Source of the DNA: Candidatus Abyssobacteria bacterium SURF_5
Lineage (GTDB): Bacteria > Abyssobacteria > SURF-5
NCBI GenBank assembly: GCA_003598085.1
Contig: QZKU01000128.1
Location: 62,001 to 126,000 of the forward strand
DNA length: 64,000 nucleotides
Reading direction: 5' to 3'
Part shown: positions 50,042-62,476 of the stretch, in pieces
How the letters are laid out: every line of letters starts with the position of its first letter
Position numbering within the stretch: position 1 is the stretch's first letter
Notes under the pieces: generated by a model
What the model was told of the DNA's origin: nothing
What the model saw: the letters and a program-made list of their open reading frames with translations, nothing else
The model's database searches: none
Program-made: the position numbers and the translations under genes

Positions 50042-50860
50042 TCAGAATTTGATGGCGCCGCCGCAAATGCTGATCGTCTGACCGGTCACATAATCTGCGA
50101 GGTCGGTGCAGAGGAAATCGACGGCGACCTTTGCGCAGTCGTCCTCGGTGCCGAGGCGACCGAGGGGAACCTGTGCGAGAACGTTCTGGCGTATTGCATC
50201 ATGCTTGAACGCGATCTCGCGGAGGCGCGCGGTTTCTATATAAGCCGGCGCGATGCAATTAACCGTAATGTTGTATGGCCCGAGTTCCTGCGCAAGATAG
50301 CTGGTGTAGCGGATGATTCCCGCTTTCGCGGCTCCGTAGGAGGCGTAGACCCCGCCGGGCTGGGCCTGAAGGCCGGCCTGCGAAGCGACGTTGATGATCT
50401 TGCCTGACCGCTGTTCCTTCATTGGAACGCTTGCGGCCTGACTGCAGTAAATGGTTCCCATCAGGTTTCGGTCGATCGTGGCCCGTAAATCGGTTTCCGA
50501 CACGCTCGATGCGAAACTCTCGAAGACCTGCCCCGCCAATCCGCCTGCGTTATTGATCAGGATATCGATGCGTCCGAATTCGGCGATCACCTTAGCGACC
50601 ATCCTCTCGACGGCCGTTTTGTCGCCGACGTTGCATTCGATGCCGAGGGAGCGGACCTTATAGGCCTCGATCTCGGCCATCACGCTTTCGGCGGTAAGTT
50701 CCTCGCCGAATTCTCGGGCCGAATCAAGGTTGACATCGTTGATGACGACATCGGCTCCGAACATAGCCAGGCGCAGGGCGTATCTGCGTCCCAGGCCTCT
50801 GGCGGCGCCGGTGACGAGGGCGACTTTTCCCTTCAATTTTCTCAGATCGATGGAACCCAT
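50042..50860 (-). CDS. Short-chain dehydrogenase/reductase (FabG-like)
   Basis: The 272-residue protein has VTGAARGLGRRY for the cofactor, LINNAGG, and the catalytic set Ser160, Tyr175 and Lys179 (in YASYGAAKAG). It is closest to 3-oxoacyl-ACP/CoA reductases. Asp42 after the second strand (VINDVNLDS) suggests NAD(H) rather than NADP(H). The ATG at 50860 is preceded by GGAGGCG. It follows the 4-hydroxybutyryl-CoA dehydratase-like gene by 26 bases, so it might work on the product of that enzyme, a crotonyl-type or 3-hydroxyacyl-CoA. Confidence 0.9.
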   Translation of the reverse strand: MGSIDLRKLKGKVALVTGAARGLGRRYALRLAMFGADVVINDVNLDSAREFGEELTAESVMAEIEAYKVRSLGIECNVGDKTAVERMVAKVIAEFGRIDILINNAGGLAGQVFESFASSVSETDLRATIDRNLMGTIYCSQAASVPMKEQRSGKIINVASQAGLQAQPGGVYASYGAAKAGIIRYTSYLAQELGPYNITVNCIAPAYIETARLREIAFKHDAIRQNVLAQVPLGRLGTEDDCAKVAVDFLCTDLADYVTGQTISICGGAIKF

Positions 50861-50886
50861 TCTGCGCCTCCGGCTATGCCAAGTTG

Positions 50887-52323
50887 TTATTTGATCCCGC
50901 AGAGGACCCTGGCGAGATTCTTTTTTTGTTCGAGGTTCCCTTGCCGATAAATCATGACGCGCTGCGCCTGAGGGGAGCCGGCCCCATGCATCGATTCGAC
51001 GAGCGCGGTGCCGGCGGTCATATTCTCGATGAGGCGGCACACGCGGACGCGATCGTCTGCGGACGCGGGGCTCGAAGCGGCATAATGCTTGCGCAGCAGG
51101 TCTCCGATCTCCTCGTTTCGGAAATCTTTTTCGCTCGGGATCGTGGCGATGAGGCCGCCTGCGATATCATGCGAAAGCCTGCCGATCTCGTAGATGAGCC
51201 GTGTGACGTTGTGCTTGCAGATGTTCGCCAGCAGTGGGTCCACGAGGTATGAGCCCGATTTTGTTTGCGTTCCTTCGCAGGAACAAGCGATCGAGCAGCA
51301 ATACAGGGTTTCCGTAAGATGCATCATTTCGACCAGCTTATCGCGCACGTGCGAGGCCTTCTCGACCCCATTCATTTCTGCGGCGAGAGCAGTCGCTCCA
51401 ATGATGATGTCGCTGACGCCTCCCTTGCAGGCTCCGTAATTCTGGCGGTGGAATGCAGCGAACCTCTCGACCAGCATGCCGGCGAACTCATACTCGCCGC
51501 ACATGAATACGCGCTCCCAGGGAACGAAAACGTCCTCGAGAATAACGATCGCTTCACCGCCCACAATGCCGAATGCGGGATTTCCCATATCAGTCCGCTC
51601 GTTAAAGAGCTTGCGGTAATCGTTTGCTTGACGGCCGAACACCATGGTAACGCCGGGGGCGTCCGCGGGGACGGCGCAGCAGACGGCGAAATCCTTATCC
51701 GGCTCACGAAGTGCTATGGTCGGCATCAGGAGAACCTCGTGAGAGTTGACCGCCCCCGTCTGATGCTGTTTCGAGCCGCGAATGACGATGCCATCCTTGC
51801 GTCGTTCGGTGACATGGACAAACACGTCGGGATCCGGCTGTTGATGAGGCGGCAGCGAGCGATTGCCTTTGGAGTCGGTCATTGCGCCGCAGATCATCAG
51901 GTCTTTCCGCTGCATTTGCTTCAGGTATTCGATGAAGCGCTGGTGATAATCAGTGCTCTTGGCAGAGTCGATCTCGTATGTGGTCGAGTAAACGGCATTG
52001 ATCCCGTCGAAGCCGACGCAGCGTTGATAGCAGGAGCCTGTCTTCTGCGAGAGGAATCTCAGCATCTTTACTTTGGTAATCAGATCGGCGGCGCTTTGAT
52101 GGATGTGGAGGAACCTGTTGATCGTATCTCCGGTAAGGTGCGACTGCGCGGTCAGCAAGGGTTTTCCGTCGGCCGAGTGGGCCAGCCCATACGTCATAGC
52201 GGCGCAGCGGACGTGCGGCGCCGTGGCCGGATGGCTCACCACGTCTTCTATCTTCTCGCCAAATGCATATACTTTCGTCCGCATCGAACGAAGGCTTTCC
52301 ATATACTCTTTTGATGTCATCAT
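50887..52323 (-). CDS. 4-hydroxybutyryl-CoA dehydratase/vinylacetyl-CoA isomerase-like enzyme
   Basis: The 478-residue protein belongs to the 4-hydroxyphenylacetate 3-monooxygenase (HpaB) fold family. It retains the ligands that separate the 4-hydroxybutyryl-CoA dehydratase branch: Cys98 and Cys102 in TGSCYQRCVG, and His292 and Cys299 in HRQNYGACKGG, matching (from memory) Cys99, Cys103, His292 and Cys299 of the clostridial enzyme AbfD. Tyr296, Lys300, Glu257 and a glutamate in VESMHGAGSPQAQR also fit. Such enzymes hold FAD and a 4Fe-4S cluster and dehydrate 4-hydroxybutyryl-CoA to crotonyl-CoA; they are oxygen-sensitive. An AGGAG lies eight bases before the ATG. Real substrate unproven; relatives may act on other 4-hydroxyacyl-CoAs. 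Confidence 0.85.
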   Translation of the reverse strand: MMTSKEYMESLRSMRTKVYAFGEKIEDVVSHPATAPHVRCAAMTYGLAHSADGKPLLTAQSHLTGDTINRFLHIHQSAADLITKVKMLRFLSQKTGSCYQRCVGFDGINAVYSTTYEIDSAKSTDYHQRFIEYLKQMQRKDLMICGAMTDSKGNRSLPPHQQPDPDVFVHVTERRKDGIVIRGSKQHQTGAVNSHEVLLMPTIALREPDKDFAVCCAVPADAPGVTMVFGRQANDYRKLFNERTDMGNPAFGIVGGEAIVILEDVFVPWERVFMCGEYEFAGMLVERFAAFHRQNYGACKGGVSDIIIGATALAAEMNGVEKASHVRDKLVEMMHLTETLYCCSIACSCEGTQTKSGSYLVDPLLANICKHNVTRLIYEIGRLSHDIAGGLIATIPSEKDFRNEEIGDLLRKHYAASSPASADDRVRVCRLIENMTAGTALVESMHGAGSPQAQRVMIYRQGNLEQKKNLARVLCGIK

Positions 52324-52970: not shown

Positions 52971-53250
52971 AAAATTCTCCCAGTTTGTCTCGTTGTTCAG
53001 CACAGCAATCAATGCCTTGTGCTATAGTTTGTGAAAGAAGTGCGAACAGCAAGGTAAGCATAGGGCAACTATCGTGCCGTTTGGATTGAGATGCCACAGT
53101 TTCTCATAAAACATATTATAGCATAACAAGTTGCAGCAATGCCTCCCCTCGCGCGGGGTGCTTGCCGATCGGGTGATTTGAGCCTAAGCCGGCGTTCTGG
53201 TGTGTGAAAACACACAGCTACGCAAGAAGCGGGAAAGAGGAAGGAAAAGA

Positions 53251-54516
53251 TTGAACGCAGTTGCATCAAATGCAGGCGTGGCAAACGCAGCGACCGATTT
53301 CAGTATCAAACGGTTCGTTGAGAACATCTGTTTTCGTTTTGGTCCGAGGCTGCCGGGGACGGCGGCAGAAGCAAAGACAGCGCGATTTTTGGCGCAAGCT
53401 TTACGGGAATACTGTGACGAAGTAGTAATCGATGAGCACAGATTCAGTCCGCGTTCGTTTGATTGGGGAGCCACATTTCACTTGATGATATATCTTGTGG
53501 CGCTCGTAGCATACGTGATCGTTCCACCGATGTCGTTGGCGCTAGTGCTGCTTTCGATTTCCATATTTTTTCTGTCGCGATTGAAGGGGTATGAGATTCT
53601 GGAACAGTTTTTCCCGCAGGAGAAGACGCAGAACGTAGTCGGAAAAATCAAATCCCGTGGGCAACCTCGACAGGTCCTGATTCTTTCCGCTCATCATGAT
53701 TCGGCATATTACATGCCGTTTTTGGAGAAGAGATCGAGGAAGATATTCTTGCCGGTATTCTTTTTCATTTTACTTGCGCACGGGATTCTCTTTATTGCGG
53801 CTGGCGTGCGAATGGTGGCATCACCGTTTCCGGTTTTTGGTTCTCTATCCGGTTATTTATACGGCATAGCTGTTGTTGCAGGAATTCTTTTTTTCATATT
53901 TCGCTTGTTCTTGTTCAAGAACGTCGCTGTTCTGGGCGCCAATGATAATCTCGCCTCCGTCGGGGTACTGGTGGCCGCCGCCCGCTATTGCGCAGCGAAT
54001 CGACCGGGCCACATCGAGTGTTGGTTTGTTTCGTTCGGCGCCGAGGAGGTAGGTCTTCGCGGCTCGAAACGGTTTACGAGGAAACATTGGCACGAGCTTG
54101 AGAAGTCGATGGTGATCAATCTGGAAATGGTGGGGGCCGGCACGTTGATGGTGGTGGCGGGTGAGAGAATGGCGGGAGCGCGTCATTCGCCGGTGGTGGT
54201 CTCACTTATTGTCGATGCGGCAAAGGCGTGCGGTATCGAAATGTCGACTTTTGTGGGAATCTTTGGGGAAACCGATGCCTCATCGTTCAGCCGAATGGGA
54301 ATACAGGCGGCGACTATCGCCGCTTTTGGTGAGGACGGGGTGCCGCCAAACTGGCATCTCTTGACGGATACGCCTGAGAATATTGATGAGGATCATTTGC
54401 AGAATGCACTGCGAGTGTGTTTAAAATGTATTCACCTGTTGGATCATCCGGAGGAACATTCAGCGGCTGGAGCTGGATCTTCTGAGGAATCGAAGCTGAT
54501 GGTAAGGAATGAATAG
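53251..54516 (+). CDS. M28 family metallopeptidase with membrane-embedded insertions
   Basis: The 421-residue protein has the M28 zinc-ligand order: SAHHDSAYY (His149, Asp150), LGANDNLAS (Asp232), GAEEVGLRG (Glu265/Glu266), NLEMVGAG (Glu292) and a final histidine in PPNWHLLTDTP. The parts between are unusual: hydrophobic helices occur at about residues 76-110 and 165-222, inside the peptidase domain, so the enzyme is tied into the membrane. Substrate unknown; family members are aminopeptidases or glutaminyl cyclases. TTG at 53251 was chosen because AGGAAGG lies six bases upstream; GTG at 53200 is possible. It overlaps the next gene by eight bases and thus heads a six-gene operon. Confidence 0.8.
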   Translation: MNAVASNAGVANAATDFSIKRFVENICFRFGPRLPGTAAEAKTARFLAQALREYCDEVVIDEHRFSPRSFDWGATFHLMIYLVALVAYVIVPPMSLALVLLSISIFFLSRLKGYEILEQFFPQEKTQNVVGKIKSRGQPRQVLILSAHHDSAYYMPFLEKRSRKIFLPVFFFILLAHGILFIAAGVRMVASPFPVFGSLSGYLYGIAVVAGILFFIFRLFLFKNVAVLGANDNLASVGVLVAAARYCAANRPGHIECWFVSFGAEEVGLRGSKRFTRKHWHELEKSMVINLEMVGAGTLMVVAGERMAGARHSPVVVSLIVDAAKACGIEMSTFVGIFGETDASSFSRMGIQAATIAAFGEDGVPPNWHLLTDTPENIDEDHLQNALRVCLKCIHLLDHPEEHSAAGAGSSEESKLMVRNE

Positions 54517-55450
54517 ATCGGTCATAGAATATGCGGAACAAAGGAGCAGGGGAAGGACCCGGGTAAGAAAATATCCGATTATTCCTGCCAATATTCCGCA
54601 GAAACTGCCGAAGCTAGTGGGCATTGGCGCCGTCCTCTGGGACGTCTATGGGACACTGCTCGGCCATCCGATGGGGGACGTGGTCGAACATTCATTGATG
54701 GAGAAGAGCACCAAACGCGCGTTTATCAAGACTGCAGCAGAGTATGGGCTTGAGAAGTTTCTCGGGGGTGATCCCGCGACTGTTTTAAGAAAGCTGTACG
54801 ACGACGAGATCGAGAAGATTCACCGGCGCAAGCGGGCGCAGGGGGTCTTCTCGCCCGAGGTGAAGATCGAAGAGGTATGGTTACGAATACTGAGGCAGCT
54901 TGAAGGTAAGGGTTACATCTCCGGGGAAGGACCGGTGGATATGGAACTGGCACTCAAGGTGGCCTATTACTTCGACGATGCCCAGCAGTTCAAGGTCCTT
55001 TACCCCGGCGCCCGGCGCACGCTGGAAATGATCAGGAAGAAGGGACTCCGCCAGGGGATCGTTTCGAATGCCCAATTTTACACGCCGATAACACTCAACA
55101 TTCTCCTTCGCAATTCGGTGAGTGTTGCTGTTGAGGCGATGGACGAGTTATTCGACCACGATCTTGTTGTGTTCTCGTATGCGCTTGGCGTGGGCAAGCC
55201 AAATCCGTCCTTGTATGAGAAGGCGAGAGACCGGCTGATTGAGATGGGGATCGAGCCATCCCGTGTGATTCATGTGGGAAACGACATGTTGTACGACGCG
55301 GTCTTGGCTCGAAAGGTCGGATTCAAGGCGGTTTTCTTTGCCGGCGACAGGAGAAGCGTTACGCTCAGGAAGGACGATCCCGAAGCGAGTGGGTTCGAGC
55401 CCGACGCGGTCATCAAATCTCTGCCGCAACTTATCGAGATACTGGCATAA
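54509..55450 (+). CDS. HAD superfamily phosphatase, candidate glycosyl-3-phosphoglycerate phosphatase
   Basis: The 313-residue protein has the HAD motifs: LWDVYGTLLGHP (nucleophile Asp45), GIVSNAQFYTP, GVGKPNPSLYEKA with the lysine, and IHVGNDMLYDAVLARKVGFK with the metal aspartate. The second catalytic residue of motif I is Tyr47, not the usual Asp, which can alter chemistry; several related HADs show the same DVYGT form. A long N-terminal extension of about 35 residues is rich in Arg and Pro. Because a GpgS-like synthase lies two genes on, a role in removing the phosphate of glucosyl-3-phosphoglycerate is attractive, but not shown. Confidence 0.78.
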   Translation: MNRSVIEYAEQRSRGRTRVRKYPIIPANIPQKLPKLVGIGAVLWDVYGTLLGHPMGDVVEHSLMEKSTKRAFIKTAAEYGLEKFLGGDPATVLRKLYDDEIEKIHRRKRAQGVFSPEVKIEEVWLRILRQLEGKGYISGEGPVDMELALKVAYYFDDAQQFKVLYPGARRTLEMIRKKGLRQGIVSNAQFYTPITLNILLRNSVSVAVEAMDELFDHDLVVFSYALGVGKPNPSLYEKARDRLIEMGIEPSRVIHVGNDMLYDAVLARKVGFKAVFFAGDRRSVTLRKDDPEASGFEPDAVIKSLPQLIEILA

Positions 55451-55473
55451 CATAATCCGATGGAGTTGTCCCG

Positions 55474-57291
55474 ATGAAAGTGAGTCACCTCCTTTCGCCT
55501 GAGCCTTTGGAGCTGAAGAGAAAATCCCTCCGCTTAGGGATACTGCACTATCACCTGAAGACGGGGGGAGTGGTTTCCGTAATGCGCGATATCATTGAGG
55601 CCCTCAGGCGCTACGGCAGCTACTCTGCGTGCGAGATCGAGGTGCTGGCGTCGCTTGAATCCGCCGGAGACCTGCACGTCGCTTTTGGTTCGGCGGCGGA
55701 CGGCGGGGGAGGGTGCAATGTGATTCCCGTATCCGGCCTTGCCTATCATGACGTTCCCTATCCGGATCCGGAATCCTTTTTGAAGGCATCGTACGATCTC
55801 GCTTTTGAAATCCTCGCGGCTCTTCAATTGGAGAAAAACAGCGCCGAATACCCGTATATTTTACATGCACACAATATATCACTCGGAAAGAACCCGACTG
55901 CAACGATGGCTTTCCGCTGGATCTCACATCTGGCGCGGAAACGGTCTCTCCCACTGTGGCTGATCAATCAGGTGCACGATTTTGCCGAAAATAATCGGTC
56001 CGATCGATTGGAGGCTCTGTATAACTGTACCGGCCGGCGCGATGAGATTCTGGCCCGCAGCATCATGTATCCGGCCGAACCGAACATTATTTATGTAACA
56101 ATAAACAGCGCCGACATCGAGAACCTGCGGGCATTCGGGATTCCCGACAACAGGATTTATCTGCTCCCGGACTCGATTGAGGTGGAGCGGTTTGAACGGA
56201 ATCCTCTGTGGGACGAAGCGGAGTGGAAGCGGAACGGTCTTTCGAACGCCGACTACAAGGAAGTGATGCTGCGAATGCTTTCGGATTTTGCCGCCGCCAC
56301 TTACCAGCCGTTTGACCGTTCCTTGCCGATATTGCTTTCCCCGATGAAGGTCATGCGGCGGAAAAACAACCTGGAGGCACTGCTTCTTGTGCTGCTGTTT
56401 GGGCGAATGGGGCGGAATTACCAACTGCTAATCTCATTGAATGCCAATTCAGCGGCGGATAAGATCTATGAGCAATATTTGAAGGAATGCGCGGTCGCAT
56501 GCGGCATCCCGGTGCTGGTGGGATTTGGGCACCATCTCGTATCGAACGGCAGAGAGCGGGTGGTGCGAGATGGTCAATTGAACCAGTTCACGTTGAGCGA
56601 CGTCATTGCTCTCAGCCGTGCGGTCCTTACCACGTCGTTTATCGAAGGCTTTGGATTCGTATACCACGAGGGATGGCTGTCCCGGAAAATGGTTTGCGGA
56701 AGGAAAATTCCGGAGATAGTGGCTGATTTTGAAGCTAACGGAATGGACACGGGGCATTTTTATGAACGGCTCGCGGTCTCAGTATCAGATCTGCCGGATC
56801 TCGAAACGAGGCTTTCAGATGCTTACCAGCGTTTCGTGAGGCGGTACGGGAAGGAAATGCCACATGCGCATGATTTGACGGTTTTATCAGGAAAAGACAT
56901 AATAGATGCAAAAACTTTCATGGTTAACGACGAACGATGTATTGATTTTGCCGATCTGGACGCGGAGATGCAGCGCGACCTCATTGCGCGATGCGCCAGC
57001 GATGTTTCCGTCGCGGACAAACTTATCGATCGGAATCCGGCGGTGGGTGCGACAGTGAAGCTGCTCACGGATCCGGCACGCGAACTGATAGAAAAGAATG
57101 CATCCGTTGTACGCTCGAGGTATTCATTGGAAGCGACGGCTCGACGGCTGGAACATTTGTTTGCGATAGGGGATTCGCTTTTTCGAGAAGAGCTTCAGTC
57201 ATCGGTTCCAGCAAAGGAGAATTATGCGGCTGTCCTGGAGAAGTATCGGAAGCCCCATCGAATTCGCTTATTACTCGGTTCGGGACAGTAA
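55474..57291 (+). CDS. Glycosyltransferase family 4-like protein
   Basis: The 605-residue protein is a long GT-B enzyme: N-terminal LRLGILHYHLKTGGVVSVMR, a HAHNIS turn, LINQVHDFAENN, and a C-terminal nucleotide-sugar site with SFIEGFGFVYHEGW (the E-x7-E motif) and then an extra helical tail of about 150 residues. The longer tail is unusual for GT4. The second GT4 gene of the operon, at 59.7-61.3 kb, shares the EGFGF signature, so both may be an ancient duplication. It probably adds a sugar to the glycosyl-glycerate formed by the downstream enzymes. Spacing is 24 bases from the HAD gene. Confidence 0.85.
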   Translation: MKVSHLLSPEPLELKRKSLRLGILHYHLKTGGVVSVMRDIIEALRRYGSYSACEIEVLASLESAGDLHVAFGSAADGGGGCNVIPVSGLAYHDVPYPDPESFLKASYDLAFEILAALQLEKNSAEYPYILHAHNISLGKNPTATMAFRWISHLARKRSLPLWLINQVHDFAENNRSDRLEALYNCTGRRDEILARSIMYPAEPNIIYVTINSADIENLRAFGIPDNRIYLLPDSIEVERFERNPLWDEAEWKRNGLSNADYKEVMLRMLSDFAAATYQPFDRSLPILLSPMKVMRRKNNLEALLLVLLFGRMGRNYQLLISLNANSAADKIYEQYLKECAVACGIPVLVGFGHHLVSNGRERVVRDGQLNQFTLSDVIALSRAVLTTSFIEGFGFVYHEGWLSRKMVCGRKIPEIVADFEANGMDTGHFYERLAVSVSDLPDLETRLSDAYQRFVRRYGKEMPHAHDLTVLSGKDIIDAKTFMVNDERCIDFADLDAEMQRDLIARCASDVSVADKLIDRNPAVGATVKLLTDPARELIEKNASVVRSRYSLEATARRLEHLFAIGDSLFREELQSSVPAKENYAAVLEKYRKPHRIRLLLGSGQ

Positions 57292-57312
57292 GAAGGGCGA
57301 AAGGAGAACAGC

Positions 57313-58524
57313 ATGAGCGATTTCTATCAGGGCGGCGTCGTTTCGCTGATTCACCGGCTCGGTCATCGGAAGATCGAGACGCTTGAATCGGAACTGGAGC
57401 ATTACTCGCGAGAACGCCCCGTCGCGCTCGTGCTGCCTGTTACCTATTCGGACCTGCATGCCCCGGCGTGTCAGAACATTTTTCGGGAATTGCGAAAAAT
57501 ACGGTATGTGAGGGAATTCGTAGTGACCCTGGGGATGACGAATACGAGGGAACAGTTTGATGAAGCGAGAAAACTTGTTCGCCAATTACCGGATAACCGG
57601 GTGCTCATATGGTGCAATGGTCCGAGGATGCGCAAGCTCTACAAATTGCTCGAGCGCTACGACCTGAGGGTGGGGGGCGACGGCAAGGGGCGTTCGGCCT
57701 GGACTGCTTACGGATATGTCATTGCCAAAGGAGCGTGCTGGGTAATAGCGCTGCATGACTGCGATATCGTTAACTACAATCGCGAGCTGCTGGCGCGGCT
57801 TTGTTATCCCTGCACCAATCCGAACCTGGATTACGAGTTCTGCAAGGGGTTTTACAGCCGTATTTCTGACCGGATGCACGGCAGGGTGACTCGACTGTAC
57901 GTCGTACCGATCGTCCGCTCGCTGATCATGATCGTGGGGTATCTTCCGTTTCTTGAATATCTGAACAGTTTCAGATATCCGCTGGCGGGCGAATTCTCGA
58001 TGGTTACGGATATCGCCCGCGTGAATCGCGTGCCGGGTGACTGGGGGCTTGAAGTTGGGACGCTTGCGGAGGTATATCGGAACTGTTCGCTGAAGCGGAT
58101 CTGCCAGTGTGATCTCACGGAGAATTATGAGCACAAACACCAGCCGCTCTCGCCGGATGATCCGGGCAAGGGCCTGCTGAAAATGAGCATCGATATCGGG
58201 AAGGTGATTTTCCGGACACTGGCCAGTGAGGGGGTCATTTTTTCGGAGTCTTTTTTCCGGACATTGACATCGAGTTATCTGCGAATTGCGCAGGAAACGA
58301 TCAAGCGGTACCAGGACGACGCGATGGTGAACGGATTGAAATTCGATCTCCATCAGGAACTGGCGGCGGTAGACGCCTTCACGCGCGGAATGGAAATGGC
58401 CGGTGACGCTTTTCTGAAGGACCCGCTGGGCCTTCCGCAGATTCCGAACTGGAGCCGCGTGACTTCCGCAATCCCCGATTTTTTGGCGATGCTGCTCGAA
58501 GCAATAGAAGCGGATAATGAATAG
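57313..58524 (+). CDS. gpgS: Glucosyl-3-phosphoglycerate synthase-like (GT81) enzyme
   Basis: The 403-residue GT-A enzyme has the GT81 signs: DFYQGGVVSLIHRLG at the N-terminus, GGDGKGRSAWTAYGYVI, ALHDCDIVNYNREL (Asp149-x-Asp151, metal site), FRYPLAGEFSMVTDIARV, and VPGDWGLEVGTLAEVYRN followed by YEHKHQPLSPDDPGKG. In known cases GpgS moves glucose from UDP- or GDP-glucose to 3-phosphoglycerate as the first step to glucosylglycerate. Whether it accepts glycerate directly is not visible. It lies between two other glycosyltransferases and its stop overlaps the next start by eight bases, so all are translated together. The gene symbol is by family resemblance. Confidence 0.85.
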   Translation: MSDFYQGGVVSLIHRLGHRKIETLESELEHYSRERPVALVLPVTYSDLHAPACQNIFRELRKIRYVREFVVTLGMTNTREQFDEARKLVRQLPDNRVLIWCNGPRMRKLYKLLERYDLRVGGDGKGRSAWTAYGYVIAKGACWVIALHDCDIVNYNRELLARLCYPCTNPNLDYEFCKGFYSRISDRMHGRVTRLYVVPIVRSLIMIVGYLPFLEYLNSFRYPLAGEFSMVTDIARVNRVPGDWGLEVGTLAEVYRNCSLKRICQCDLTENYEHKHQPLSPDDPGKGLLKMSIDIGKVIFRTLASEGVIFSESFFRTLTSSYLRIAQETIKRYQDDAMVNGLKFDLHQELAAVDAFTRGMEMAGDAFLKDPLGLPQIPNWSRVTSAIPDFLAMLLEAIEADNE

Positions 58525-59758
58525 AGAGATTTCGGCACTTGACGCGGAGGCGCAAGCGCGCCTGAGAGAACTGGGGCGCGTCGCGATTCTGGTCGGCATC
58601 CCGAGTTTCAATAATGGGACGACAATCGGGCATGTGGCCCGCATCTGCGTCGAGGGATTGGAGAAGTACTTTGGTGGCCGGCCGGCGCTGCTGCTCAATT
58701 CGGACGGCGGTTCGACCGATCAGACGAAAGAAGCTTTTTTTGCTCCGCCGGTTCCGGACAATATGGGGAGGATTTCGACCCGGTACCGGGGTATGGCGGG
58801 AAAAGGCACGGCGTTAAAAGCAATTTTTGAGGCCGCTGTTTTGACGGAAGCACAGGCTTGCGTCGTTGTCGATTCCGACCTGCGCAGCATAACGCCGGAG
58901 TGGATAGGCCTGCTGGCCGAGCCGATTGTGGAAGGCACTGCCGGATACGTGGCGCCTCTCTATCTCCGGCACAAATACGACGGCACGATCACCAATAGCA
59001 TCGTTTACCCTCTCACCCGCACCCTCTATGGAAAACGCGTGCGCCAGCCCATCGGGGGCGACTTTGGTTTTTCAGGCGAACTGGCGGCGCGATATCTCCA
59101 GCAGGATGTCTGGCAGACGGCCGTGGCGCGATTCGGCATCGACATTTTCATGACGACGACCGCCATAAATGAGGGGTTCCGCATCAGGCAGGCGAATCTG
59201 GGAGCAAAAATACATGATGCGAAAGACCCGGCCCTGCATCTGGGGCCCATGTTCAGGCAGGTGGTTGGCACGCTGTTCTCGCTCATGCGCAGGTATGAGA
59301 GCAGATGGATGGCTCGTGAGGATCGGAGCGAGCCGGTTGCGGCGGTCGGGGCCTTAAAGGAACAGGAACCTGAACCGGTCCCTGTATCCCTCGATGCCCT
59401 CCTGAAGCGGTTTCGGGAAGGAGCCGAGGAGCAGGAGGCCTATTGGAGCCGGTTTCTTTCTAAAGGACTGATGGAGGAAATCCGGAGGTTGAAGACATCC
59501 GATGCGAGCTCATTTTCTTTCCCGGCGCGGGTGTGGGTGGATTGTGTTTACGAGTTCGCTGTCGCATATAATAAATCCGGACTGATTCCGGATCAAATCG
59601 TTGATTCGCTTACGCCTTTATATTTCGGCCGCACCGCAAGCTTTGTACGGGAGACCGAGTCCATGGACTCGAAGCAGGCAGAGGAAGTAATCGAGGGCGT
59701 GGCAGAGTTATTCGAGTTGGAGAAACCGAAATTGGCATCACTCTGGAGTCGCACATGA
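58517..59758 (+). CDS. Mannosylglycerate synthase-like GT-A glycosyltransferase
   Basis: The 413-residue protein has VGIPSFNNGTTIGHV, LLNSDGGSTDQT, GKGTALKAIFEAA, VVVDSDLRSITPEWI (Asp119-Ser-Asp121, the metal site), and RQPIGGDFGFSGELAARY. This is the layout of the GT78/GT2-like mannosylglycerate synthase family, which joins a sugar to glycerate in one step. It thus offers a second route in the same operon beside the GpgS-like enzyme. The C-terminal ~140 residues are helical. It overlaps both neighbours (8 and 4 bases). Substrate is unproven; a function as a second-sugar transferase is also possible. Confidence 0.8.
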   Translation: MNREISALDAEAQARLRELGRVAILVGIPSFNNGTTIGHVARICVEGLEKYFGGRPALLLNSDGGSTDQTKEAFFAPPVPDNMGRISTRYRGMAGKGTALKAIFEAAVLTEAQACVVVDSDLRSITPEWIGLLAEPIVEGTAGYVAPLYLRHKYDGTITNSIVYPLTRTLYGKRVRQPIGGDFGFSGELAARYLQQDVWQTAVARFGIDIFMTTTAINEGFRIRQANLGAKIHDAKDPALHLGPMFRQVVGTLFSLMRRYESRWMAREDRSEPVAAVGALKEQEPEPVPVSLDALLKRFREGAEEQEAYWSRFLSKGLMEEIRRLKTSDASSFSFPARVWVDCVYEFAVAYNKSGLIPDQIVDSLTPLYFGRTASFVRETESMDSKQAEEVIEGVAELFELEKPKLASLWSRT

Positions 59759-61293
59759 ACATGCTGTTTCAGAAAAAGAACAACAACAAGAAACCTCTCA
59801 CGGTGGGAATCGGTCATTTCTGGATTGGGAAACGAGACGGCGTAAATGTCGTCATCATGCGGAACGTGGAAAGCTTGCTGAAACTCCACCCTGAAATCAA
59901 GATCAGTTTGTTCGGAAGGCTCGGCGGGAACTGGGAGGAATTCGCGACTTCGATTCCGAACAATATCACGTACTTGAATATTGACGAATTTGATCCGGAT
60001 TATCGAATACCCGGTCTGGATCACAAATCGGTATCTGAGCAGAAAATTCAGGATTACATCTGGCAGGGGACCAACATTCTGGAGATCCTCATAGAGAAGC
60101 TCAAGCCGATCGACGTAGTGCTTGCGGAAAACCTGGGCATCGGCATACATCCGGCGGTAACGTATGCGTTTTATCTTTATCTCAGGTATTGTCAGCAGCA
60201 TCATCCGAGAAAGCGGATTTTTTACCGCGCGCATGATTTTCTTCAGCAGCGGGCGAAGAATTTCGAGAATTTGAAGAAGTTTCATGATGCCGAGATTCCT
60301 CTCATTCCGAACTGGCACGAAGTGATTTACCCAAACTATCCGAACCTGGGCTATATCACTATCAACAAGTCCGACATCTCGCGTTTGATCGAGCACGGAA
60401 TAGATCGCGAGCGGGTGGCGTATGTGCCGAACTGCATTGATGAAGGCCTGCTTGTCGACGACGATGAGCATAAGAATTTGCGCACGCGGATGATTGAGCG
60501 GGTTGGGGCAGCGCCCGACGTGCGTTTTATTTTGTATCCGGTTCGCTGCGTAGAGAGAAAGAATGTGGAAGAGGCTATCTTCCACACGCGCCTGCTCAAT
60601 GTGATTTCAGAGCGAAACCTTGAAATCAGGAGGACTCGCCTCAGCGGAAAGTTTCATCTGCTTGTTGGCATAAGGCCGGAGAACGGCGATGACCTCGCTT
60701 ATGCAGAACAGATCGAGCAATTCTGCCGGGTAAACGATTTGCCCTGTACAATTGGGATTCAGGACCTTGTTTCATTCGAGCGGAAGGCGGACGGCACCGG
60801 GAACGGGTACGTGCAATACTCTATCGGCGACGCCTACAATATGGCGGATATCATCATCACAACGAGTTATCTCGAAGGCTTCGGGTTTGCGTTCATTGAG
60901 CCCTGGTATCTCGGCAAGGTGGTTATCGGCAGAAACATTGCGAACATCACACAAGACTTCCAGCGGGCGGGCGTCAATCTGGATCATTTGTATAACGTTC
61001 TGCGAGTTGACGGACAGGATTATCATTCGATCGGGTATCAAGACCGGACGAGTATCGGGCTTGGAAGACGGCTGAAGACAATTCTACATCTTAGCGATTT
61101 GTCCTTCGTACGGAAGGTTATCGAGGCGAACGAGCACAGCATCCACGCCATGATGTCGTTGCTCGATGCCGATCGTGCCTGTCCCCTGATCAATTCGAAT
61201 CGAGAAGTCGTCGCATCGACGTATTCTCCGGCAAAGGTAGGCGAACAGTTGTGGGAAGTGCTTACCAATCTTCCGCTTCGCCCCAGCAGATAG
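59755..61293 (+). CDS. Glycosyltransferase family 4-like protein
   Basis: The 512-residue GT-B protein has TVGIGHFWIGKRDGVNVVIM near the start, YRAHDFLQQRAKNFE in the middle, and SYLEGFGFAFIEPWYLGKVV in the C-terminal lobe, the EGFGF and E-x7-E motif of GT4. YPVRCVERKNVEEAI is the usual strand after the hinge. It shares these with the GT4 at 55.5-57.3 kb. It is last in the operon and starts within the stop of the MGS-like gene (ATGA). A combination of GpgS-, MGS- and two GT4-type enzymes is compatible with a tri- or tetrasaccharide glycerate; the sugars cannot be told from sequence. Confidence 0.85.
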   Translation: MNMLFQKKNNNKKPLTVGIGHFWIGKRDGVNVVIMRNVESLLKLHPEIKISLFGRLGGNWEEFATSIPNNITYLNIDEFDPDYRIPGLDHKSVSEQKIQDYIWQGTNILEILIEKLKPIDVVLAENLGIGIHPAVTYAFYLYLRYCQQHHPRKRIFYRAHDFLQQRAKNFENLKKFHDAEIPLIPNWHEVIYPNYPNLGYITINKSDISRLIEHGIDRERVAYVPNCIDEGLLVDDDEHKNLRTRMIERVGAAPDVRFILYPVRCVERKNVEEAIFHTRLLNVISERNLEIRRTRLSGKFHLLVGIRPENGDDLAYAEQIEQFCRVNDLPCTIGIQDLVSFERKADGTGNGYVQYSIGDAYNMADIIITTSYLEGFGFAFIEPWYLGKVVIGRNIANITQDFQRAGVNLDHLYNVLRVDGQDYHSIGYQDRTSIGLGRRLKTILHLSDLSFVRKVIEANEHSIHAMMSLLDADRACPLINSNREVVASTYSPAKVGEQLWEVLTNLPLRPSR

Positions 61294-61381: not shown

Positions 61382-61406
61382 TTCCTGCTACGGCAGGAAT
61401 TTTTTT
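61382..61406 (+). terminator. Rho-independent terminator of the glycosyl-glycerate operon
   Basis: TTCCTGC-TACG-GCAGGAA forms a perfect 7-bp stem with a tetraloop, followed by seven Ts. The stop codon (TAG) of the convergent topoisomerase VI A gene lies in the loop. On the minus strand an A-run follows, so it works only for the plus-strand operon. Confidence 0.85.
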
Positions 61407-62476
61407 GTGTTGCTCAATTTGGCCGGCAGGTAGACATCCATGACGTAATTGAGGCCGTGCTTCGCGAATGCCTGTTGCTCGACGCGTTGGCCGAGCTTCA
61501 ACATCTGGGCGATGGCGTCCTGCCAAGACTTGTGATGCTTGATGAAGGGGTCGTTCTTCAAAGCGTCTTCGGCCCGTTTGATGTCCACCGGTTTCAGCTT
61601 ATGCGTTGGCAGGTCGTAGTCGAGGATATCCTGCGGTGTGACACCGAGGAACTGGGCCCTCGGAACGCAGAAGAATCTATTTAGATGCGCGGCATTACCG
61701 GAGCCGACTTTCAATGTTCGGTAAATATTGCAGATACCGTATGGGTCGCCGTCGACGAAGGCGTAAACGGGAATATTCAAGTCGTCGGAGAGCCTTCTGA
61801 TGAAGCGGCGGCAGGCGCGCGTGGGTACGCCGCCCATAGAGATAAGGATGCAGTTGGCGCGCTTCCAGTAATTGTGTTTTACCAGTCGCTGAAACATGCC
61901 GGCCGTCTCAATGGCGAGAATGAAACGCGCCTTTGACTGAAATCCCAGGTGCTCGACTGCGATGGGAATTGAGTATGCACCCGAACCGAACCGAGTGCAG
62001 TCTATCTTCAGCGTTTTTCCCGTATCGCTCTCTTTGTCAATTACGATCAATTGGCCCGCGACTTCGCCTCCCTTCTCTTCGGGGATGAACCCCAGTTGCT
62101 CGCGGTTCACCCCGAGCATCGCTTCGATGTCATCCATCACCGTGTCCGATTCCGGCTGCTCGTGGAACGCGGCCTCTTTCCAGTTCTTGGAGATGTAATA
62201 TGCCTCTCGTTTCGAGGCGATGTCATCCGTCTCGATGAGGTTTTTGGAAAGCGCCATCATTTTGAGCGTTTGCGCGAAGGCTTTGACCGTCCCGACAGTC
62301 AGCGTGCGCTCCTTCTTGCGGTTGGAGATCTCGAGGAAGCCCTCCTTGGGTTTGTAGCGGACATTGTTCAACGCGCGAATCGGCATGCGCATCGAAGGCT
62401 TCTGGCGCTTGAGGATTTTTTCCTGGATCGTTTTTGCGTTTCTTTTTATCGACTGCAAGGCGGTCGTCACGTTCAA
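61388..62476 (-). CDS. DNA topoisomerase VI subunit A (Spo11-like)
   Basis: The 362-residue protein has the winged-helix (5Y-CAP) block with KREAYYISKNW, where Tyr94 aligns with the Spo11/TopVIA catalytic tyrosine, and a Toprim domain with ILAIETAGMFQRL (Glu190) and AFVDGDPYGICNI (Asp242 and Asp244). The subunit makes the double-strand cut and passes a second duplex through; TopVIB gives the ATP-driven gate. The start lies five bases after the TopVIB stop, so this is the canonical B-A operon. In bacteria topo VI is unusual; archaea and plants are the usual holders. The stop codon is embedded in a terminator hairpin on the other strand. Confidence 0.92.
   Translation of the reverse strand: MNVTTALQSIKRNAKTIQEKILKRQKPSMRMPIRALNNVRYKPKEGFLEISNRKKERTLTVGTVKAFAQTLKMMALSKNLIETDDIASKREAYYISKNWKEAAFHEQPESDTVMDDIEAMLGVNREQLGFIPEEKGGEVAGQLIVIDKESDTGKTLKIDCTRFGSGAYSIPIAVEHLGFQSKARFILAIETAGMFQRLVKHNYWKRANCILISMGGVPTRACRRFIRRLSDDLNIPVYAFVDGDPYGICNIYRTLKVGSGNAAHLNRFFCVPRAQFLGVTPQDILDYDLPTHKLKPVDIKRAEDALKNDPFIKHHKSWQDAIAQMLKLGQRVEQQAFAKHGLNYVMDVYLPAKLSNTKKFLP

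Follow-up and report, generated by a model that had tools for sequence, protein, structure and literature searches.

A six-gene cluster of Candidatus Abyssobacteria with two glycerate transferases and two GT4 enzymes, possibly making a glycosyl-glucosylglycerate solute by two parallel routes

What is made by a cluster that places both known entry types to glycerate solutes, together with two GT4 glycosyltransferases, on a single transcript of a lineage not yet in culture? We addressed this question in the window, that is, the whole stretch of 64,000 nucleotides analysed here from Candidatus Abyssobacteria bacterium SURF_5. Six open reading frames, all on the + strand and spanning 53200-61293, encode in this order an M28 peptidase-like protein (M28), a HAD hydrolase (HAD), a first GT4 (GT4a), a GT81 enzyme, an MGS-like protein (GTx) and a second GT4 (GT4b), and are separated by -8, 23, 21, -8 and -4 bp (Table 1). 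The gene list and families of the first-pass annotation are found as given, and the 8- and 4-base overlaps that it reports for the glycerate transferases are exact; its M28 start at 53251, on the other hand, is an alternative TTG, the GTG lying at 53200. The E-x7-E motif (EGFGF...E) is present in both GT4s, which flank the glycerate transferases as had been described, and a D-x-D is present in both GT-A enzymes (DCD in GT81, DSD in GTx). Gene content, gene order, family relations, folds and synteny are established here, and the cluster is not a chance grouping, since four of its genes lie side by side again in another phylum (locus L031). Phylum-wide searches gave little, the phyla of the window and of genomes G003 and G033 comprising one to three genomes each. 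The genes downstream of the terminator-like hairpin are on the opposite strand. As separate observations on the - strand, genes for the A and B subunits of Topoisomerase VI are adjacent in this bacterial genome (61388-63924), and an HpaB-family hydroxylase/dehydratase gene adjoins that of a short-chain dehydrogenase (50042-52323).

Table 1. Positions of the cluster genes, the closing hairpin and the M20-like ORFs of related operons.
Feature	Position	Strand	Evidence and remarks
M28 metallopeptidase-like membrane protein, 438 aa	53200..54516	+	Pfam PF04389, 94 bits; GTG start; first gene of the transcription unit
HAD hydrolase, REG-2-like, putative phosphatase	54509..55450	+	TIGR02252, 65 bits; synteny
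MggA-family GT4 (GT4a), GT-B, E-x7-E	55474..57291	+	Homologues, tree, predicted fold
Putative GpgS, GT81, methanogen type	57313..58524	+	NF040724 (GpgS_Meth), 352.6 bits (curated cut-off 700), full length
Ggs/MGS-like, GT78-type enzyme (GTx)	58517..59758	+	Predicted fold; P. mobilis homologue; weak PRK13915/MGS profile matches
Second GT4 (GT4b), probable own clade on the MggA side	59755..61293	+	Tree, BLAST; weak Glycos_transf_1 and MggS matches
Terminator-like hairpin and T run closing the operon	61382..61410	+	7-bp stem, TTTTTTT tail; pattern match only
M20-like ORFs before gpgS, Petrotoga-type MGG operons	L228:6688-7830, L230:3123-4283, L123:6578-7807, L122:10397-11572, L121:5926-7137		

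The GT81 protein matches the methanogen-type GpgS profile over positions 3-402 and, as judged from this match, probably couples NDP-glucose to 3-phosphoglycerate to give glucosyl-3-phosphoglycerate. GT4a has no Pfam match and was placed through its homologues and its fold. It is homologous along its length to the product of the gene following gpgS in Petrotoga mobilis, an oil-field bacterium (locus L228; E about 1e-30, about 25% identity), and lies on the same side of the tree as this protein; the predicted structure is a GT-B fold that most resembles those of BshA, glycogen synthase and similar enzymes, and E391 and E399 are invariant. By homology to the L228 protein, GT-B fold and E-x7-E motif GT4a is of MggA type, and it may add the second sugar to glucosyl-3-phosphoglycerate. 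When the GT4a profile was run against 103 genomes of the phylum of P. mobilis (also that of G193), matches were confined to the genus Petrotoga and one sister genus. In each of these loci that was read the gene comes after an actinobacterial-type gpgS, which is the arrangement of mggA.

Homologues of the HAD protein (26-56% identity) occur in five other operons of the MggA/GpgS type (G002, G145, G116, G253 and L063), whereas a GT81 without an MggA often has an MPGP-family phosphatase as its neighbour in the related loci; HAD is therefore likely to be the phosphatase of the phosphorylated disaccharide-glycerate. This assignment rests on synteny, because motif I reads DxYGT, of the dehalogenase type, and not the usual DxDGT, a feature common to the homologues in L119, L121, L122, L123 and L063. 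HAD matches only HAD-IA/REG-2-like models and neither TIGR02461 nor TIGR01486 (HAD-IIB), and was rejected on this ground as a standard GpgP/MpgP. The family is a candidate MGPG phosphatase.

The M28 protein has three to four TM stretches predicted from hydropathy, and its gene accounts for the 8-bp overlap with the HAD gene. No M28 gene was found beside the operon in G002 or G003, the nearest comparable loci, and M28 was accordingly rejected as a conserved operon part; most likely, it is a passenger in the same transcript, outside the pathway. In Petrotoga, G324, G116, G253 and G145 an M20-peptidase-like ORF directly precedes gpgS, where the window has M28 up front instead. Those of Petrotoga and G116/G253 are apparently devoid of metal ligands, and the L121 member gives Pfam matches to M20 as well as to M28; a profile comparison of the window M28 with the M20-like ORF found no link (probability 0.1).

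The MGS-like nature of GTx, proposed in the first-pass annotation, is supported by a comparison of folds, the kind of evidence named there as able to overturn it. In the AF2 model built from a 20-row alignment (mean pLDDT 94.4), the eight best PDB matches are all mannosylglycerate synthase (MGS) of Rhodothermus marinus, aligned from end to end in about 405 columns (TMq 0.67-0.72), while GpgS structures rank below them and match the catalytic domain only; likewise, the profile match to MGS runs through the C-terminal domain. The model thus predicts for GTx the MGS fold with its C-terminal helical domain, and the D-x-D is DSD at 119-121. The GTx family is found in 31 of the 290 sampled genomes, belonging to many families, and has neither a curated name nor a curated Pfam or NCBIfam model above cut-off in the libraries searched. 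P. mobilis has only one GTx homologue, 42% identical, and a characterised Ggs, the one-step glucosylglycerate synthase; the homologue is therefore most likely this Ggs, and GTx itself, to go by its relatives, is most likely an enzyme of the Ggs type. It would join an NDP-sugar, of glucose or mannose, to D-glycerate in one step, yielding a glycosylglycerate. Members of the family adjoin MggS in Fervidobacterium (Thermotogota), Neomarinimicrobiota, Acetothermia, Chloroflexi, G193 and G324, as fits a Ggs feeding MggS. With this widespread GT78-like family tied to the Petrotoga Ggs, annotation of many genomes would become possible.

In the tree, which has long branches, GT4b is separated from MggS and joins MggA and GT4a (support 93/84); it scores 39 bits against the MggS model NF041101, whose cut-off is 640; both score and placement led us to reject it as an MggS orthologue. 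By its place in the tree it appears to be a third MggA-like lineage, sister to MggA, and has so far been met in this analysis in three genomes, each of a different and thinly sampled phylum, the close homologues outside the window being those of G003 and G033. In G033, GT4b comes directly after an actinobacterial-type GpgS and not beside a Ggs, GpgS being its sole partner on a short contig. GT4b may add the second sugar to a glycosylglycerate, or a further sugar. That this lineage, which has no characterised representative, serves to make a hitherto undescribed tri-glycosyl glycerate, or else two distinct glycerate solutes, is on the whole somewhat unlikely. A further MggS-like GT4 is encoded in the window's genome far from the operon (L107:979-2262; G000:C80).

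How the genes are combined elsewhere bears on their function. G002, a member of the window's own family, carries HAD-GT4a-GT81 and neither GTx nor a close GT4b, from which it follows that the modules are separable and that the GpgS route can stand alone; G001, also of this family, lacks all four transferases. In G003 the order is GT4a-GT81-GTx-glycerate kinase-GT4b. GT81 and GTx occur together in 12 of the 290 genomes against 2.2 expected (Fisher p = 4e-8, uncorrected for shared descent), which supports the suspected GT81-GT78 linkage. In G000, G003, G056, G139, G172, G207 and G095, GTx has a GpgS, of one type or the other, as its direct neighbour or at most two genes away, and such closeness is seen in at least seven families. 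The neighbours in related loci include TreT, trehalose synthase, trehalose-phosphate synthase, mechanosensitive and CLC channels, glycerate kinases and phosphomannomutase, with a Na+/H+ antiporter in G002; a GDP-mannose pyrophosphorylase-like gene is present in the window's genome. The TreT, trehalose synthase, channel, antiporter and glycerate kinase neighbours support an osmotic or solute setting. Synteny placing the GT4s in cell-wall loci had been named at the outset as what would speak against a glycosyl-glycerate solute locus with adjacent GT81 and GT78-like enzymes; the related loci point to solute genes instead, and the solute locus is supported.

Other arrangements met in this survey are recorded here in their own right. 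One genus (G116, G253) has an operon of GpgS, an MggA-family GT4, an MggS-like GT4 and HAD (L122:5939-11572, L123:6578-12261). Four Chloroflexi loci (L183, L193, L172 and L186) have MggS-like GT4s in uninterrupted runs of two or three, with a long GpgS (ORF of 500-660 aa) after them, which suggests longer glycerate oligosaccharides. At L036:2264-10695 a mechanosensitive channel, DUF5752, TreT, trehalose synthase/phosphatase, a CLC channel, GTx and a mechanosensitive-channel-like gene form an apparent osmotic-stress island linking DUF5752 to solute synthesis.

Taken at their family relations, the genes are best read as a phosphorylating set (GpgS, the MggA-like GT4a and HAD) and a non-phosphorylating pair (the Ggs-like GTx and GT4b). 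We give an even chance to the proposal that two parallel routes encoded in the operon lead to one compatible solute, a glycosyl-glucosylglycerate that would be either mannosylglucosylglycerate (MGG) or the corresponding glucosyl compound. In the first, GpgS would couple glucose to 3-phosphoglycerate, GT4a would attach the second sugar and HAD would take off the phosphate; in the second, GTx would couple a sugar to free D-glycerate, to which GT4b would attach the second sugar. All substrates, the phosphatase role of HAD, the common product and the osmotic purpose are what we infer. Counting against two parallel routes are the position of GT4b outside the MggS clade, its place beside GpgS in G033, the DxYGT motif of HAD and the low identity of GT4a to the MggA candidate of P. 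mobilis (about 25%).

The same position of GT4b, in a clade distinct from both MggA and MggS, would also suit the main rival, a single longer solute, in which GpgS or Ggs starts, as alternative entry points, GT4a adds the second sugar and GT4b the third to give a tri-glycosyl glycerate. Two GT4s from one superfamily do occur within the one operon, and multi-GT4 solute operons recur (the Chloroflexi loci L172, L183 and L193, and the GpgS-MggA-MggS-HAD operon of G116/G253); however, the pairing of GT4b with GpgS alone on the short contig of G033 implies that GT4b need not act third, and the known members of these families produce two-sugar glycerates, so that we regard a third sugar as unlikely. 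Somewhat less probable still are two separate solutes, MGG or diglucosylglycerate being made by HAD-GT4a-GT81 and another sugar-glycerate, for instance one based on mannosylglycerate, by GTx-GT4b. Such a division would agree with the separable modules, of which G002 has the first only, and with the predicted fold of GTx, closest to MGS, which is a mannosyltransferase acting on D-glycerate; it is at odds with the joint occurrence of GT81 and GTx far above chance, with GpgS and GTx being neighbours in many families, and with the P. mobilis homologue of GTx, best explained as Ggs, a glucosyl enzyme. A polysaccharide, lipid or cell-wall locus, M28 included, that starts from glucosylglycerate in the manner of mycobacterial methylglucose lipopolysaccharide, a polymer which the mycobacterial GpgS does start (PMC2674218), is highly improbable for an operon with no acyl- or methyltransferase, flippase or polymerase and with homologous loci that hold TreT, trehalose synthase, mechanosensitive/CLC channels, an antiporter and glycerate kinases.

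Returning to two parallel routes to one solute, the enzyme kinds all have precedent; what is new is their presence in one operon, with a second GT4 from the MggA side. Why a bacterium should keep two routes to one rare solute is a question that can be tested on a single cloned piece of DNA. The view that no pathway described so far employs more than one or two of these enzymes has to be abandoned, since GpgS, a GT4 of MggA type and a homologue of Ggs are all encoded by P. mobilis, for which two alternative pathways to MGG are reported (title of the paper by Fernandes et al., 2010, as cited in PMC3694870 and PMC4555173). In its genome (G337) gpgS is followed by the GT4a-family gene with a 4-bp overlap, and the GTx homologue lies elsewhere. 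The two routes of P. mobilis are said to be GpgS-MggA-phosphatase and Ggs-MggS. The window resembles this species in that the putative GpgS adjoins an MggA-family GT4, that a Ggs homologue is present in the genome and that one GT-A glycerate transferase is paired with one GT4; it differs in having all genes in one operon, a putative GpgS of methanogen and not actinobacterial type, and a second GT4 from the MggA side where the second route of P. mobilis has MggS. In Persephonella marina, which has a ggs-gpgS-gpgP operon, the Ggs and GpgS genes are adjacent as in the window, whereas its phosphatase is of another type and a GT4 pair is not known from that operon. Finally, R. marinus MGS (GT78; PDB 2BO4, 2Y4J) matches the fold of GTx over the full length, with a TM of about 0.7 at 17-18% identity, whereas, among relatives whose physiology is known, the one nearest to GTx is probably a glucosyl enzyme.
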